A stretch of DNA of 64,000 nucleotides from NCBI GenBank assembly GCA_020851455.1, contig JADZCT010000041.1, positions 62,001 through 126,000 on the forward strand, given 5' to 3'. Source of the stretch: Gemmatimonadaceae bacterium (GTDB lineage: Bacteria; Gemmatimonadota; Gemmatimonadetes; Gemmatimonadales; Gemmatimonadaceae). The position numbers and the translations under genes are program-made. The notes beneath the pieces were generated by a model that did not search any database, had not been told where the DNA came from, and saw nothing but the letters and a program-made list of their open reading frames with translations. This document shows, in pieces, positions 49,484 to 56,439 of this stretch (position 1 is the first letter of the stretch; every line of letters begins with the position of its first letter).

Positions 49484-50149
49484 ATGACCGCCGTCCTCCA
49501 GCTTCCTGACCAATCCATCACTCCGCCCCCTGCCGGGTACACCCGGTTCATCGGCGAGCGGCTGTGGCTCGATTTCGTGAACAGCGACCGCGCAGTCATC
49601 AGGCGCGGCCGGGCCGCCGACGCGCTCGACGACTTCGACACGTACATCGGCTGGCTCGGCGCCGTGCGCGTGCTTGACGACGAGCGCGCCGCCTCGATGC
49701 TGCGCCGCGCCCACCAGCAGCCCACGGCTGCCACCACCGCGCTGCATGAGGCACGGCGGCTCCGCAACGTGTTGCGCAACCTTGCCGAGCATGGGCTGGA
49801 CGACCGCCGCGCGCAGGACGCCGCGCTTGCCGAGATCAACCGCATCCTCGGCCGCAGCGCCGGGAGCCGGCGCGTGGAGCCGCGCACCGACGGCGGCTTC
49901 GTGCGCAACTTCGTCACGGCGGGCGATGTATTCGCCGGGCTTCTGGTACCGGTGATCGAGTCGGCCGCCGACGCCCTCGTGCACGACGAGCTCCCGCGCG
50001 TTCGGAGGTGCGCGAGCCCGAAGTGCGTCCGCGTGTTCTACGACGCGAGCCGCAACGGCAAGCGCAGGTGGTGCGAAATGTCCGTCTGCGGGAACCGGGC
50101 CAAGGCCTCGCGGCACCGCCAGAAGGTCCGCGCCGAAAGCGCCTCCTAG
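49484..50149 (+). CDS. ABATE/CGNR zinc-finger regulator
   Basis: This 221-residue protein has an N-terminal ABATE domain (FIGERLWLDFVNSDRAVIRR ... RLRNVLRNLAEHG) and a C-terminal CGNR zinc finger (VRRCASPKCVRVFYDASR ... RRWCEMSVCGNRAKASRHR). The second has four Cys as zinc ligands and a basic tail for DNA or RNA binding. Such proteins are predicted stress-linked transcription regulators. Its stop shares the palindromic CTAG with the stop of the convergent helicase gene. Confidence 0.9.
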   Translation: MTAVLQLPDQSITPPPAGYTRFIGERLWLDFVNSDRAVIRRGRAADALDDFDTYIGWLGAVRVLDDERAASMLRRAHQQPTAATTALHEARRLRNVLRNLAEHGLDDRRAQDAALAEINRILGRSAGSRRVEPRTDGGFVRNFVTAGDVFAGLLVPVIESAADALVHDELPRVRRCASPKCVRVFYDASRNGKRRWCEMSVCGNRAKASRHRQKVRAESAS

Positions 50150-52932
50150 CGGCCGCGTCGTTTCCCGCGCCCCGCGGGCGAACCAGGGCGGTGGGATCCC
50201 GGCCCGCGCCGACGGTTGTCGCCGCGGATCGAACCCCGTTCGCGTGGCTGGGAATCGCCCCGCCCACGCGCTCCGGAGTCGTCCAGCCCACGCCGGACCG
50301 TGCCACGGCCGCGCTCGCGCCACGTGCCGGCGCGCGTCGCCTCATCGTCGGTGAATGGCCGCGCCAGGGCGTCGTGCAGCTCATCGAGCGAATCCGCCTT
50401 CACCGCGCCCCGCCCACCGCGCGTCACCGTGAACCGCAGCGGGCGGTCGAACTCCGGCAACTCCTCGGCGACGAGGCCGCGCGCAACCTTCTCGGGCATC
50501 ACGACGCGCGCCACCCCAAGCGGCGCGCCGCCTTGCTCCTCTACCTCATAGTGCAGCGGACAGGTGCGGCCGCGAATCTCCATCGCCCCGGGCAGCCGCG
50601 CCAGCCGGTCGCGCTCCTCGCGCGACACGAAGGCGTCAGCGTTGAATCGCAGGGGCGCCGCGCGATACTCCTGGAAGGTTCGCGTCGCGCCCAGTTGCGC
50701 TTCATACCACGCGGCAAGTTCCGCCTGGCCGAGCCGCATGGTGCGCCCTCCGCTCCTGCGCCAAGCCTCGCGCACCTGCTCGATTGGCTGCTGGTTGCGA
50801 GGCACGGCTGCGTGCCGCGCCTCGCCGCGTGCCAGCGCGAGCGCGAGCACCCGGCGCGCTTCCTCCTCGAGCCCCGGCGGGAACTCCCGCACCGGCTCTC
50901 GCTCACGCTCCAGTTCGAACCCGAAGTAGCTCACGCGTCGCTCGATCGCGAGCGGCGCCTGCTTGTGCTTCGGGTCGAACACGAGCGCGGGCTTGCTCGC
51001 TGTTGAGTACTTCCGTACGAGCGCGAGGGGCACGTTGGTACCTTCGATTCCCGCGCGTGGCACGCCGAACTTGTCGGCAAAGAATCGCAGCGTTCCGCTG
51101 ATCGCGCCCCACGTGCCGGCCACGCTCGTCTTCGAAACGCGCGCCTCCTCGCCCCATGCCGTCATCTCGTCTATCACGAGGTCGAACGGCTCGAGTCGGG
51201 CGAGAAGGTCAACGAAGCTGCGCTCGACCGCCTCGGTGGCGAGAGGCATCGCCGTCGGCAGTGGAAGGCGCACGGCGCGGTACACGCTGGCCATGGCGAG
51301 GGCAGCGTCCTCGATCGCCTTCACCAGCACGCCGCGCCGCTCCGCCCAGCGCTCCACGCTCTCATCAAAGAGGTGCCGCGGAAGCCCGTACACCTCGCCC
51401 ATGTACCCGCACCTGGTGAACGCCTCCGCGTACACGTTGTATGCAGTGAGGTTGTCGCTCCCGCGTACGATCAGCCCGCCCAGGTCACGGTCCTCGCGCG
51501 TCATTCGGTGGAGCGACTCGATCCCCGCCATCACCGCCACGACCGCCAGCAGCGTGTCGTCGCAATGCACGAGCAACTCGGCCCACGGCCGGTCAACCGG
51601 CATCGCCTCCACCGCTCTGCCGTACGCGGTGAGCCTGCCGTCCTCGACGATCCCGCGCGCCTCGAGCAGCTCGATCGCGCGCAGGTACGCCGGCCGGTCG
51701 AGCGGAACCGGCAGATCGAGCTCGTCGGCGCGCACTCCCAGCGCGGCACAGGTGAGCGCGACGCGCTGGCTATCGCCGGCAAGCTGGAACTCCGGTGCCG
51801 TGGGCCGCAGCGCGCTGAACGCAATGTCGCGGTCCGACAGGATGAACACCCTGCCGCCCGCCACGCGTCCGTGCACACGCCCCGCCATCTGCAGGATTTC
51901 GTTTGCGCCCAGATGCACCTTGGTGAGGACGTTCCGCCCGTTCTCGACGAGGTTCGCGAAACGCGTGTCGTCAATCACCACCGTATCTAGCCCCTGCACG
52001 TTGAGCGCGCTTTGCCCTGCAGCCGTCATCGCGAGCAGGTATGGTTTCTCCACGCTCCCTTCCAGGAACGGCCTGATCACGCGGATCGGCTCGCCGCCGT
52101 GGTAGAACTGCGCCGTCATGCGCGGGAACCGCGCGGCCACGTCGGTCGCCGCCTCTTCCACCGCGGCGCGCGTGGGGAGGAACACGCCCACGCCGCGCTT
52201 CTCCCGTACCACGCGCTGCATGAAGCGGTCGTCGAGGAAGCCCGTGGGGTGCTTGTTCACCACCTGCACGTCGGCTGCCTTCGCCGGATCGAACGCGCTG
52301 CTCTCGACGGTGGACGCCGCGTCGAGATAGCGGGCGTAGACCGTGGGGTCCACCGTCGCCGAGAGCCAGATGAAGCGGCACCCCACGCGCTTGCCGAGCG
52401 CAAGGCAGAGTTCCAGCTCGGCGCTCGTCTGGTGGATCTCGTCAACCACGAGGGTATCCTGCGCACGGATATCGCCGTCCTGGAACCAGCGGCGCGCGAT
52501 TCCCGTGGTGACTATCACCACGTTCCATGTGGGCGAGTCCGGCGTGGCCTCGCGCTCGCGGTTGATCACACCTACGCGCAGCTCGTCCGTGCCGAGGAGC
52601 ACCTGGGCGATGGGGCGGATTCCCAGCGTCTTTCCCGTACCCGTGCCCGCGACGATGCCGAAGCCGCGCCGCCGGACCCCCGGGCGCCATGCGAGGTCTT
52701 CGCCTCGAAACCGCTCGGCAAGACGGGTGAGTTCGTCGCCGTACTCGCGCCAGAGGAGCGTCTCGATATCGAGCGTGAAAGCCAGTTCGATGGTCTCGCA
52801 CGCCGCGCGCGTGGGCGCAATGACGATGATGCGACGCGTGGCGCCCGCCGCAACAAAAGCTTCACGGTCGGGCGGAAGATACGGATCGTGGACGCTCCTC
52901 TTGAGCGGAGAGCGCGCGTCGGGGTGCGCCAT
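50146..52932 (-). CDS. DEAH-box helicase (HrpA/HrpB-like) with Arg/Gly-rich tail
   Basis: This 928-residue superfamily 2 helicase has Walker A AGTGTGKT at residues 95-102, the DEIH box in TLVVDEIHQTS at 164-167, motif III SATVDP, and the Q-x-x-G-R-x-G-R-like motif VI region LQMAGRVHGRVAGG. A winged-helix/ratchet-like region and a domain resembling the C-terminal half of HrpA follow. The last ~55 residues are rich in Arg and Gly (RERGRGTVRRGLDDSGARGR; PAGRGKRRGR), a likely RNA-binding tail. The function is probably RNA remodelling, but a DNA role cannot be excluded. The N-terminal ~90 residues before Walker A are unlike HrpA. Confidence 0.82.
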   Translation of the reverse strand: MAHPDARSPLKRSVHDPYLPPDREAFVAAGATRRIIVIAPTRAACETIELAFTLDIETLLWREYGDELTRLAERFRGEDLAWRPGVRRRGFGIVAGTGTGKTLGIRPIAQVLLGTDELRVGVINREREATPDSPTWNVVIVTTGIARRWFQDGDIRAQDTLVVDEIHQTSAELELCLALGKRVGCRFIWLSATVDPTVYARYLDAASTVESSAFDPAKAADVQVVNKHPTGFLDDRFMQRVVREKRGVGVFLPTRAAVEEAATDVAARFPRMTAQFYHGGEPIRVIRPFLEGSVEKPYLLAMTAAGQSALNVQGLDTVVIDDTRFANLVENGRNVLTKVHLGANEILQMAGRVHGRVAGGRVFILSDRDIAFSALRPTAPEFQLAGDSQRVALTCAALGVRADELDLPVPLDRPAYLRAIELLEARGIVEDGRLTAYGRAVEAMPVDRPWAELLVHCDDTLLAVVAVMAGIESLHRMTREDRDLGGLIVRGSDNLTAYNVYAEAFTRCGYMGEVYGLPRHLFDESVERWAERRGVLVKAIEDAALAMASVYRAVRLPLPTAMPLATEAVERSFVDLLARLEPFDLVIDEMTAWGEEARVSKTSVAGTWGAISGTLRFFADKFGVPRAGIEGTNVPLALVRKYSTASKPALVFDPKHKQAPLAIERRVSYFGFELEREREPVREFPPGLEEEARRVLALALARGEARHAAVPRNQQPIEQVREAWRRSGGRTMRLGQAELAAWYEAQLGATRTFQEYRAAPLRFNADAFVSREERDRLARLPGAMEIRGRTCPLHYEVEEQGGAPLGVARVVMPEKVARGLVAEELPEFDRPLRFTVTRGGRGAVKADSLDELHDALARPFTDDEATRAGTWRERGRGTVRRGLDDSGARGRGDSQPRERGSIRGDNRRRGPGSHRPGSPAGRGKRRGR

Positions 52933-53046: not shown

Positions 53047-53583
53047 TCAGGGCTCCAGCGGCCCCGGCGGCTTCCGGGTTGCCTTTGGCTTCGACGAATC
53101 CGGCCTGGGCGGCACCGTCACCCTGGACGAGGCCGGTGCCAGCGTGCCGCGCGCTCCACGTGCCGGGTTGTGCCGCATCATGGACGAATCCTGCACCAGC
53201 ACACCGTGCGCAGCCCTGCCGGCCGGCGAGAGCGTGTTCATGAGCTGCTTGCCTTCCTGAGCTGGCTGGCCCATCAGGAGCGTCGCATCGCGCGGCCGCG
53301 TGCGAAGGGCGGTTCCGCAATCCGTCGGCGCCGGTTGCTGCCGCTCGGGCACGCCGCGAAGCCATACGCGGCACATCCCTGCCGGTGGCCACGCGGACTC
53401 GGGGATGGCAACGCTCGCGGTGTCCTGGCCTGGTGGCACCGCCTGCGCCACCAATACCGGCGCCGCAAACGCTGTCGCAACACACGCCACGATTACGCTA
53501 CCTCGTGCCACCGCGCCTCCGAAAGCTGCAACTGTACCCCGTCCGGGACGACCCAGCCACCACTCGCGCCACGCACGAGCCAT
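53047..53583 (-). CDS. Secreted protein with a Pro-rich CRVW motif
   Basis: This 178-residue form starts at an ATG at 53583. Earlier in-frame codons are random-looking. A signal/anchor helix (GSVIVACVATAFAAPVLVAQ) is followed by IPESAWPPAGMCRVWLRGVP and then ERQQPAPTDCGTALRTRP. The arrangement PP-x-G-x-CRVW ... G-P-x-x-QQPAPTDC, with two Cys, resembles a short recurrent motif of secreted proteins in several soil phyla; I cannot give it a family name. The C-terminus is Pro/Lys/Arg-rich and disordered. It lies 89 bp after the phosphofructokinase gene. Confidence 0.6.
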   Translation of the reverse strand: MARAWREWWLGRPGRGTVAAFGGAVARGSVIVACVATAFAAPVLVAQAVPPGQDTASVAIPESAWPPAGMCRVWLRGVPERQQPAPTDCGTALRTRPRDATLLMGQPAQEGKQLMNTLSPAGRAAHGVLVQDSSMMRHNPARGARGTLAPASSRVTVPPRPDSSKPKATRKPPGPLEP

Positions 53584-53672: not shown

Positions 53673-54752
53673 TCAATCGCCAAAGCTGATGCCCGTGTGA
53701 CGCGCAGTGCGCACGATATCGTGGTTGGGGTCCACCCGCCGAGGGGTGCGAAGCGCCTCCTCGATGGGAATCGTCACGATGTGCGGCGAGTGGAGCGCGA
53801 CCATCTGCCCCCACTTCCCGGCCTCCACCGCCTCGACGGCCGCGCCGCCAAACCGCGTGGCGAGCAGGCGGTCGTAACCGGTAGGCATTCCCCCCCGCTG
53901 GAGATGCCCCAGAACTATCGTGCGGCACTCCTTGCCGGTGCGCTTCTCGATCTCGTACGCTACGCGCTCGCCCACCCCGCCTACACGCCTGTCCTGCCCG
54001 GGGAGCGATGCTCCAATGATTGATTCCTCGCCACCGCTGGGCACGGCGCCCTCGGCCACCACCACCACGTCGAAGTGACGCCCACGCTGCTCGCGCGCCA
54101 TGATGGCATCGGAGACCTTCTGGACGTCGTACGGGATCTCGGGAATCAGGATCACGTGTGCCGCGCCGGCGAGCCCCGCGTAGAGCGCGATGAACCCGGC
54201 GTGGCGCCCCATCACCTCGACGACGATCACGCGATCGTGGCTCTCGGCGGTCGTGTGCAGCTTGTCAATCGCGTCCATCGCCGTGGTCACGGCTGTGTCG
54301 AAGCCGAAGGTCGTGACCGTGCCGCTCACGTCGTTGTCTATCGTCTTCGGCACGCCCACCACGCGCAGCCCCTTTTCCCACAGCCGCTGAGCAATGCGGA
54401 GACTGCCGTCGCCGCCAATCGCGATCACCGCGTTGATGCCAAGGTTGCGCGCGTTCTCGATCAGCTCATCAGAACGATCCACCTCGACGAAGCTGCCGTC
54501 GGCCTGCTTCACGGGATACGAGAACGGGTTCCCGCGGTTGGTCGTGCGCAGGATGGTGCCGCCGAGGTGCCCGATGCCGCGCACGTCGTCGCGTCCCAGG
54601 GGGACGGTATCGTCGTCACCCAGGAGCCCGGCATAGCCCTTCCTGATGCCAAGCACATGCCAGCCGCGGTCAACCGCGGAAAGCACCGCGGCGCGGATCA
54701 CCGCATTGAGGCCGGGGGCATCGCCGCCGCCCGTGGAAATCGCAACGCGCAT
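53673..54752 (-). CDS. pfkA: 6-phosphofructokinase
   Basis: This 359-residue enzyme of the PFK-A family phosphorylates fructose 6-phosphate. The start ATG at 54752 gives MRVAISTGGGDAPGLNAVIR. The donor loop is AIGGDGSLRIAQRL, the catalytic loop is VPKTIDNDVSGT, and the substrate residues lie in VEVMGRHAGFIALYAG and GHLQRGGMPTGYDR. Gly in GGDGS is the ATP-type residue, while Lys in PKTIDND is typical of PPi-using enzymes (E. coli has Gly there). The phosphoryl donor is therefore uncertain. It follows the SelW-like gene by 21 bp on the same strand, probably one transcript. Confidence 0.93.
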   Translation of the reverse strand: MRVAISTGGGDAPGLNAVIRAAVLSAVDRGWHVLGIRKGYAGLLGDDDTVPLGRDDVRGIGHLGGTILRTTNRGNPFSYPVKQADGSFVEVDRSDELIENARNLGINAVIAIGGDGSLRIAQRLWEKGLRVVGVPKTIDNDVSGTVTTFGFDTAVTTAMDAIDKLHTTAESHDRVIVVEVMGRHAGFIALYAGLAGAAHVILIPEIPYDVQKVSDAIMAREQRGRHFDVVVVAEGAVPSGGEESIIGASLPGQDRRVGGVGERVAYEIEKRTGKECRTIVLGHLQRGGMPTGYDRLLATRFGGAAVEAVEAGKWGQMVALHSPHIVTIPIEEALRTPRRVDPNHDIVRTARHTGISFGD

Positions 54753-54773: not shown

Positions 54774-55010
54774 TCAGGGCACGGGGTAGAGCTTCTTGAG
54801 ATCGGCCATCACCTCGCCGGGCATCGCATGCCGGCCAAGTTTCGACTTCTCGAACACGGGCCTGCCGTCCGCGACCACCTCGAAGCGACCGCCGCCCGAC
54901 TCATCGAGCGTGACCTCCGCGCCGGGATATCGTTCACGAATCGAAGCCGCCAGACTGACGGCTCGGGCTTCGTAGCTTCAGGAAACGCAGTACTCGATGG
55001 TGACACGCAT
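54774..55010 (-). CDS. SelW/Rdx-family selenoprotein (in-frame UGA = Sec11)
   Basis: Reading from the ATG at 55010 gives MRVTIEYCVS, an in-frame TGA (54980-54978), then SYEARAVSLAASIRERYPGA, EVTLDESGGGRFEVVADGRP, VFEKSKLGRHAMPGEVMADL and KKLYPVP to TGA at 54776-54774: 78 residues with the internal UGA read as selenocysteine. The CxxU motif sits exactly where SelW/SelT/SelH-like (Rdx) thioredoxin-fold proteins have CxxC or CxxU, and the rest of the frame keeps the family pattern. A hairpin follows the UGA (separate entry). The product is likely a small cytosolic redox protein. No selA, selB, selC or selD gene is visible in this window; these must exist elsewhere for decoding. The alternative is a point-mutated pseudogene. 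Confidence 0.82.
54942..54972 (-). promoter_or_regulatory. Candidate bacterial SECIS hairpin
   Basis: In the mRNA, five bases after the UGA, a stem CGAAGCC/GGCUUCG (7 bp) encloses a 3-base bulge (CGA) and an inner GCC/GGC stem. The inner stem is capped by an 8-base loop GUCAGUCU that begins with G. The apical loop starts 18 bases after the UGA. Bacterial SECIS elements lie immediately downstream of the Sec codon with a short apical stem and a G at the start of the loop, so geometry and loop base both fit. Confidence 0.7.
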
Positions 55011-55134: not shown

Positions 55135-56439
55135 GTGAAGATCCGGGCTCTTGCTGTGTCGGCAGCCGTGCTGGCGTTCGCCGCGCCTGCCTCCGCCCAG
55201 CGTCAGGACGCGCTCGCCGCCGAGATAGACCGCCAGGCCTCCGCGATGGCTGACCAGCTCGCTGCGTGGCGGCACGACATCCACGAGCATCCCGAACTGT
55301 CGTTCCAGGAAGTGCGCACGGCGAAGCTCGCCGCCGACCACCTGCGCTCGCTCGGCATCGAGGTGCGCACCGGCGTTGGCGGCAACGGCGTGGTTGGCGT
55401 GCTGAAGGGCGCGAAGCCTGGCCCGGTGGTGGCGCTCCGCGCCGACATGGACGCGCTTCCCGTGGCGGAGCAGGTGGCCGTGCCATACAAGTCAACGGTT
55501 CGCACGGTGTACAACGGCGTCGAGACCGGCGTGATGCACGCCTGCGGTCACGACATGCACACGGCAATGCTGATGGGCACGGCGACCGTCCTGTCTCGGA
55601 TGAAGGCGCAGCTTCCAGGTACTGTCGTCTTCCTCTTCCAGCCCGCGGAGGAGTCGCCACCAAAGGGGGGCGCCGGGCCGATGATCGCTGACCGCGCGCT
55701 GGACAACCCGAAGGTGGATGCGGTCTTTGGCCTGCATGTGGGGCCGGGCCCGATCGGGATGGTGCAGGTACGCGCGGGGCCGACCACCGCCGCATCCGAC
55801 GCCTTCCGCCTCATCGTGCACGGGAAGCAGGCCCACGGCGCGTTCCCCGCCTCGGGCGTTGATCCCATTGTCGTGGGTTCGCAGATGGTGCTTGCCTTCC
55901 AGACGATCATCAGCCGCCAGGTGGACCTCACGACCGCGCCGGCGGTGATCACGGTCGGGGCGTTCCAGGGCGGACTTCGTGAGAACATCATCCCCGACAG
56001 CGTCTGGATGATCGGCACTATCCGCACCTACGACGAAGCCATGCGCAAGTCAATCCACGACCGGATGCAGCTCATCGCGACCGACATCGCCCACTCCGCG
56101 GGCGCAACGGCAAGCATGACGATCACGCGCGGCTACGACGTGACGATGAACGATACCGGCCTGGTGGCCCGGATGACGCCCACCCTGGAGCGCGTGGCTG
56201 GCAAGGACCGGTTTGGCGAGTCGCGGCCAAGCGTGGCTGGCGAGGATTTCTCCCGCTTTGCCGCGCGCGTGCCAGGAATGTTCGTCAGTCTGGGCGTCAC
56301 GCCGGCCAACCTCGACTGGCGCACTGCGGCAGTGAACCATTCGCCGCTCTTCCAGGGCGATGACTCCGCGCTCCCGGTTGGGGTGCGCGTGATGGCCGCC
56401 CTGGCGGTGGATTACCTGCGGAGCGGGCGGACCCGGTAA
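55135..56439 (+). CDS. Secreted M20 amidohydrolase (hippurate/IAA-amino-acid hydrolase type)
   Basis: This 434-residue protein starts at a GTG at 55135, with GGAAAG upstream, and a signal peptide (VKIRALAVSAAVLAFAAPAS). M20D motifs: WRHDIHEHPELSFQE, ALRADMDALPVAEQ (Asp ligand), HACGHDMHTAMLMG (Cys and His), FLFQPAEESPPKGG (Glu-Glu), GLHVGPG (His), and VNHSPLFQGDD (final His). A lid/dimer domain sits in the middle (RLIVHGKQAHGAFPASGVDP). It would hydrolyse N-acyl or N-aroyl amino acids outside the cytoplasm. Divergent from the SelW-like gene by 124 bp. Confidence 0.93.
   Translation: MKIRALAVSAAVLAFAAPASAQRQDALAAEIDRQASAMADQLAAWRHDIHEHPELSFQEVRTAKLAADHLRSLGIEVRTGVGGNGVVGVLKGAKPGPVVALRADMDALPVAEQVAVPYKSTVRTVYNGVETGVMHACGHDMHTAMLMGTATVLSRMKAQLPGTVVFLFQPAEESPPKGGAGPMIADRALDNPKVDAVFGLHVGPGPIGMVQVRAGPTTAASDAFRLIVHGKQAHGAFPASGVDPIVVGSQMVLAFQTIISRQVDLTTAPAVITVGAFQGGLRENIIPDSVWMIGTIRTYDEAMRKSIHDRMQLIATDIAHSAGATASMTITRGYDVTMNDTGLVARMTPTLERVAGKDRFGESRPSVAGEDFSRFAARVPGMFVSLGVTPANLDWRTAAVNHSPLFQGDDSALPVGVRVMAALAVDYLRSGRTR

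Follow-up and report, generated by a model that had tools for sequence, protein, structure and literature searches.

A SelW-type selenoprotein gene with a conserved hairpin upstream of pfkA in Gemmatimonadota

SelW-like selenoproteins with a CxxU motif have been described in Deltaproteobacteria, Clostridia, Symbiobacterium, and marine metagenomes (PMC1794560, PMC2398784), and SelW genes missed by annotation are reported for Epsilonproteobacteria (PMC4607533). The locus analyzed here, referred to as selW, lies in a 64,000-nt stretch of DNA (the window) from a 2.96-Mb draft genome of 139 contigs that is 97% complete. With the known bacterial SelW-like selenoproteins it shares a small Rdx/SelW protein and Sec at the second CxxC position, and it differs from them in its phylum, Gemmatimonadota, and in its conserved place before pfkA, which is unmentioned in those reports (PMC1794560, PMC2398784). 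As for the Epsilonproteobacteria SelW (PMC4607533; NF041051), the likeness consists of the best NCBIfam match and a short apical hairpin after the UGA. Unlike those proteins, however, the window gene scores 79 bits (E 2.3e-22) against NF041051 (SelTWH_Campy equivalog), below the cut-off of 88, and thus does not belong to the same curated subgroup. Among solved structures, the Rdx proteins 2fa8, 2obk, 2oka, 2p0g, and 3dex and C17orf37 (2ljk) are relatives by sequence, and selenoprotein W (2npb) by profile. The Rdx structures and 2ljk have the same domain, with their CxxC aligned to CxxU, and in the aligned sequences shown they carry Cys where the selW product has Sec. In the part of the literature searched, no relevant report was found on Gemmatimonadota selenoproteins or on SelW with phosphofructokinase. 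SelW-type selenoproteins themselves are already known from other bacteria; their Gemmatimonadota-wide presence was not found reported, and the conserved selW-pfkA neighbourhood is apparently unreported as well.

The first-pass annotation had placed a selenoprotein of SelW/Rdx type, with a SECIS hairpin, directly upstream of pfkA, and this proposal is upheld by family profiles, UGA conservation, the Sec machinery, and a covarying hairpin. The translation agrees with the suggested frame, which runs from ATG 55010 with a single UGA at codon 11 in the context CVS-UGA, and reads, with UGA as U, MRVTIEYCVSUSYEARAVSLAASIRERYPGAEVTLDESGGGRFEVVADGRPVFEKSKLGRHAMPGEVMADLKKLYPVP, followed by a stop. The only internal UGA (54980-54978) takes the place of the second Cys in the CxxC redox motif, and the terminator is also UGA. 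Comparison of the 78 residues with SelW/Rdx families, which had been recommended as a check, gives matches above the cut-off for both Pfam Rdx PF10262 (with Cys at position 11: E 3.2e-16, 59.7 bits vs 22.6, covering positions 1-71 of the 74 in the profile) and NCBIfam TIGR02174 CXXU_selWTH (4e-15, 55.9 bits vs 34.2). Neither redox position of C8-V-S-U11 varies across 15 aligned relatives when U is written as C. No clear Shine-Dalgarno sequence is present just upstream of the ATG in the window gene. Overall, we are highly confident that selW is a functional SelW-like (CxxU) selenoprotein gene rather than a pseudogene or an error. Its product is probably a small thioredoxin-fold protein, judging by the matches to solved Rdx structures, and would act as a thiol/selenol oxidoreductase. 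The features of the locus are collected in Table 1.

Table 1. Features of the selW-pfkA locus, in window coordinates
Feature	Position	Strand	Remark
selW, Rdx/SelW-like selenoprotein gene	54774..55010	-	78 residues, CVSU motif at residues 8-11
In-frame UGA, codon 11 of selW, predicted to be read as selenocysteine	54978..54980	-	
Apical SECIS hairpin (predicted), conserved, AGCCGUCAGUCUGGCGGCU	54945..54963	-	Loop AGUCU, A-U closing, 21 nt after UGA
Full predicted hairpin of the window sequence, weakly conserved outer helix included	54935..54974	-	Fold
pfkA, 6-phosphofructokinase, 359 aa	53673..54752	-	Pfam PFK E 1.1e-101; TIGR02483 PFK_mixed 431.6 bits
Small putative exported protein, PPAGMCRxW motif	53047..53583	-	pfkA neighbour with or without selW; start codon chosen by analyst
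DEAH-box helicase-like protein, weak HrpB similarity	50146..52932	-	Conserved end of the selW-pfkA neighbourhood
M20-family amidohydrolase/peptidase, divergent neighbour	55135..56439	+	Conserved next to selW in part of the genus only

Relatives were sought in 179 genomes of the source's family (Gemmatimonadota), 106 of which have a selW homologue, and covariation was evaluated on 102 distinct sequences, in which the T of the UGA is hairpin position 1. The inner helix shows compensatory changes at pairs 21-33 (CG, UG, GC, UA, and GU) and 18-36 (GC, AU, and CG). Codons 18-20, which span the loop and its closing pairs, have invariant third bases within their commonest residues (GTC in 47 of 47, AGT in 59 of 59, and CTG/TTG in 103 of 103 genes), and most selW codons outside this stretch vary freely at the third base. 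Thus, according to both compensatory pairs and invariant synonymous positions, the hairpin is conserved beyond the protein sequence. Taken alone, the inner hairpin (54963-54945) folds at −10.9 kcal/mol (z −3.87), and the full hairpin of the window's own sequence at −19 kcal/mol (z −1.95). It had been suggested that a hairpin begins 5 bases after the UGA; the hairpin itself stands, but that start belongs to an outer helix of low conservation (32 of the 102 sequences form pair 8-45), and the conserved inner one begins 14 nt after the UGA.

The bacterial SECIS model (PMC13188914) comprises a loop N1-G-[G/U]-N-N2 with N1-N2 pairing, a spacing of 21-22 nt, a stem of at least 7 bp, and an MFE below −7.5. 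The selW loop A-G-U-C-U and its 21-22 nt spacing fit this model (PMC13188914), from which nothing essential differs; the core GYCRGUYUGGCGGC is particular to the lineage of selW. This generic model is passed by 86 of 103 selW genes. It is, however, also passed by 341 of 1060 random TGAs from the same loci (32%) and by both Cys homologues, so we rejected it as proof: in G+C-rich DNA such as this it is not discriminating and alone proves little. Folding energies of selW are modestly below those of synonymous shuffles, with a weak mean z of −0.8, and an Rfam scan of the window gave no match. The conserved hairpin is described here as a predicted SelB-binding, UGA-recoding element. Lying just 3' of codon 11, it would recruit SelB carrying Sec-tRNA(UCA), and selenocysteine would be placed at the second position of the CxxU motif.

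As for the neighbourhood, pfkA, a key sugar-breakdown gene, starts at 54752, and the measured gap of 21 nt to selW agrees with the distance first given. A possible ribosome site for pfkA itself (GGTGA) lies in this gap. Across the family, pfkA is a close same-strand neighbour 3' of selW in 87 of 106 genomes, with gaps ranging from −4 to 161 nt (median 29) and four-base overlaps in 14 genomes. The same adjacency occurs in 11 of 17 sampled genomes from two other families of the order and is absent from 3 genomes sampled in further families of the class. Within the stretches read, 18 family genomes have selW without an adjacent pfkA (in two cases the stretch breaks off no more than 150 nt from selW), and at least five of them have pfkA elsewhere. 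At loci lacking pfkA beside selW, the helicase still follows selW in most cases, and the block of pfkA, PPAGMCR protein, and DEAH helicase occurs both where selW is present and where it is missing. The small protein (PPAGMCRxW...QQPAPTDC) is part of this conserved post-pfkA block across the family. The arrangement resembles an old operon-like neighbourhood from which one gene or the other has been lost repeatedly, and the selW-pfkA link is not obligatory. The two genes are probably co-transcribed in the same operon, as their adjacency suggests. Of the earlier remark that the context is unusual and hints at redox control of glycolysis or simple co-transcription, the last part remains the better reading; "unusual" does not hold, since pfkA adjacency is the usual arrangement of the family.

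The hint of redox control is not borne out, because selW and pfkA each occur alone and no PfkA cysteine tracks selW. Such control would make SelW a dedicated redox partner of phosphofructokinase and the two genes a regulatory pair controlling glycolysis. The frequent adjacency, the short gaps and overlaps, and the recurrence of the pair in two other families of the order speak for such a pair, but selW without a neighbouring pfkA and pfkA with its downstream neighbours in genomes without selW speak against it. A scan of PfkA cysteines for a redox target revealed no conserved selW-specific Cys: the one near position 214 is common whether or not selW is present, and the window's PfkA lacks it; C125 and C276 are enriched, yet not conserved with selW. 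Control of PfkA by this route thus lacks sequence evidence, and we consider a dedicated partnership quite unlikely. A second possibility is gating by selenium, in which ribosomes that stop at codon 11 in its absence would lower translation of the downstream pfkA. Such coupling would be possible where the selW stop overlaps the pfkA start by 4 nt, as in 14 genomes, and across the short gaps of most others; gaps up to 161 nt, the candidate GGTGA site in the window, and the frequent breaking of the pair, however, make it very unlikely. Taken broadly, a selenium-responsive unit, in which either Sec insertion gates pfkA translation or SelW directly tunes phosphofructokinase, appears unlikely. SelW, in the reading preferred here, would serve a general redox function and not that of a dedicated phosphofructokinase regulator.

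Conservation of the UGA codon was assessed on the same 106 family homologues, in which codon 11 is TGA in 103, Cys (TGC) in 2, and masked in 1. Codons 12-66 are open in all of them, with stops in 162 of 212 alternative frames, and past the UGA it is the third codon position that changes most often (29.5 substitutions per gene vs 18.0 and 14.6). Since the frame is open throughout and shows this third-position bias, selW is not a chance open frame. In the phylum sample a homologue is found in 192 of 395 genomes, with one TGA in nearly all of the matches listed; a scan of the collection with an alignment of close relatives yields named Gemmatimonadetes/Gemmatimonadota MAGs and two distant Nitrospira/Nitrospirales relatives. 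The in-frame UGA aligns with a conserved Cys and is kept as UGA in relatives, the pattern by which bacterial selenoproteins are recognized. The SelW-type selenoprotein is ancient in Gemmatimonadota.

The source genome also encodes the complete Sec machinery, the absence of which had been named as grounds for dropping the proposal: selA (539.5 bits), selB (336 bits, with SelB winged-helix domains), selD (378 bits), and, beside selD, a tRNA-Sec gene with anticodon TCA (73.5 bits). Contamination is unlikely, as selA is present in every same-genus genome but two incomplete ones. An in-frame stop within a single draft assembly could be taken to mean that a Cys gene has decayed or been misread and that the TGA really terminates it. 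A pseudogene or sequencing error is, however, refuted by conservation and hardly credible, given TGA at codon 11 in 103 genomes, purifying selection after it, and the full machinery. UGA is normally a stop codon and selenocysteine a rare amino acid; a code change by which the source genome would read UGA as Trp or another amino acid, for which the in-frame UGA alone speaks, is refuted by the UGA that terminates selW, the presence of tRNA-Sec(UCA), SelA, SelB, and SelD, and the alignment with Cys in relatives, and is virtually inconceivable. Sec insertion at codon 11 of selW is accordingly the predicted outcome.

UGA-form selW and selA tend to occur together: among the 179 genomes, 94 have both, 10 selW only, 15 selA only, and 60 neither, with the one masked gene counted as UGA-form (Fisher p about 1e-22, in a test that ignores shared descent). 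A selA match is absent from both Cys-form genomes, G149 (one contig, 100% complete) and G134 (71% complete), in which loop codon 19 is Ala, not AGT/GGT. This switch from Sec to Cys is a clear-cut case of Sec loss in nature. UGA-form selW without a selA match is seen in G091 (91% complete) and G139 (96%), both fairly complete genomes, which counts against the selenoprotein reading. Vice versa, selA without a close selW match is seen in family genomes G008, G009, G014, G072, G084, G157, G158, and others, so that in these the Sec system is probably maintained by other selenoproteins.

Two further UGA-containing redox genes are present in the source genome. One encodes an Fdh-like molybdopterin enzyme with an in-frame TGA (CNRT[U]HAPS; G000:C105, some 30 kb ahead of the window). 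Shortly after its UGA lies the hairpin core GTCGTCAGTTTGGCGGC, almost identical to that of selW, GCCGTCAGTCTGGCGGC (17-nt core), which agrees with one SelB recognizing both. The other is a peroxiredoxin gene (G000:C92; TGG[U]TAQ), with the UGA probably at the peroxidatic position; its hairpin differs from the core of selW and the Fdh-like gene.

Gemmatimonadota is a soil and freshwater phylum, and these data show the use of selenocysteine in a SelW-type protein to be both old and widespread there. Ordinary gene callers tend to truncate such a gene or overlook it. For the poorly understood role of bacterial SelW, the conserved place next to pfkA supplies a lead that can be tested, and, if the two genes did form a selenium-responsive unit, selenium or redox state would be linked to glycolytic flux in Gemmatimonadota.
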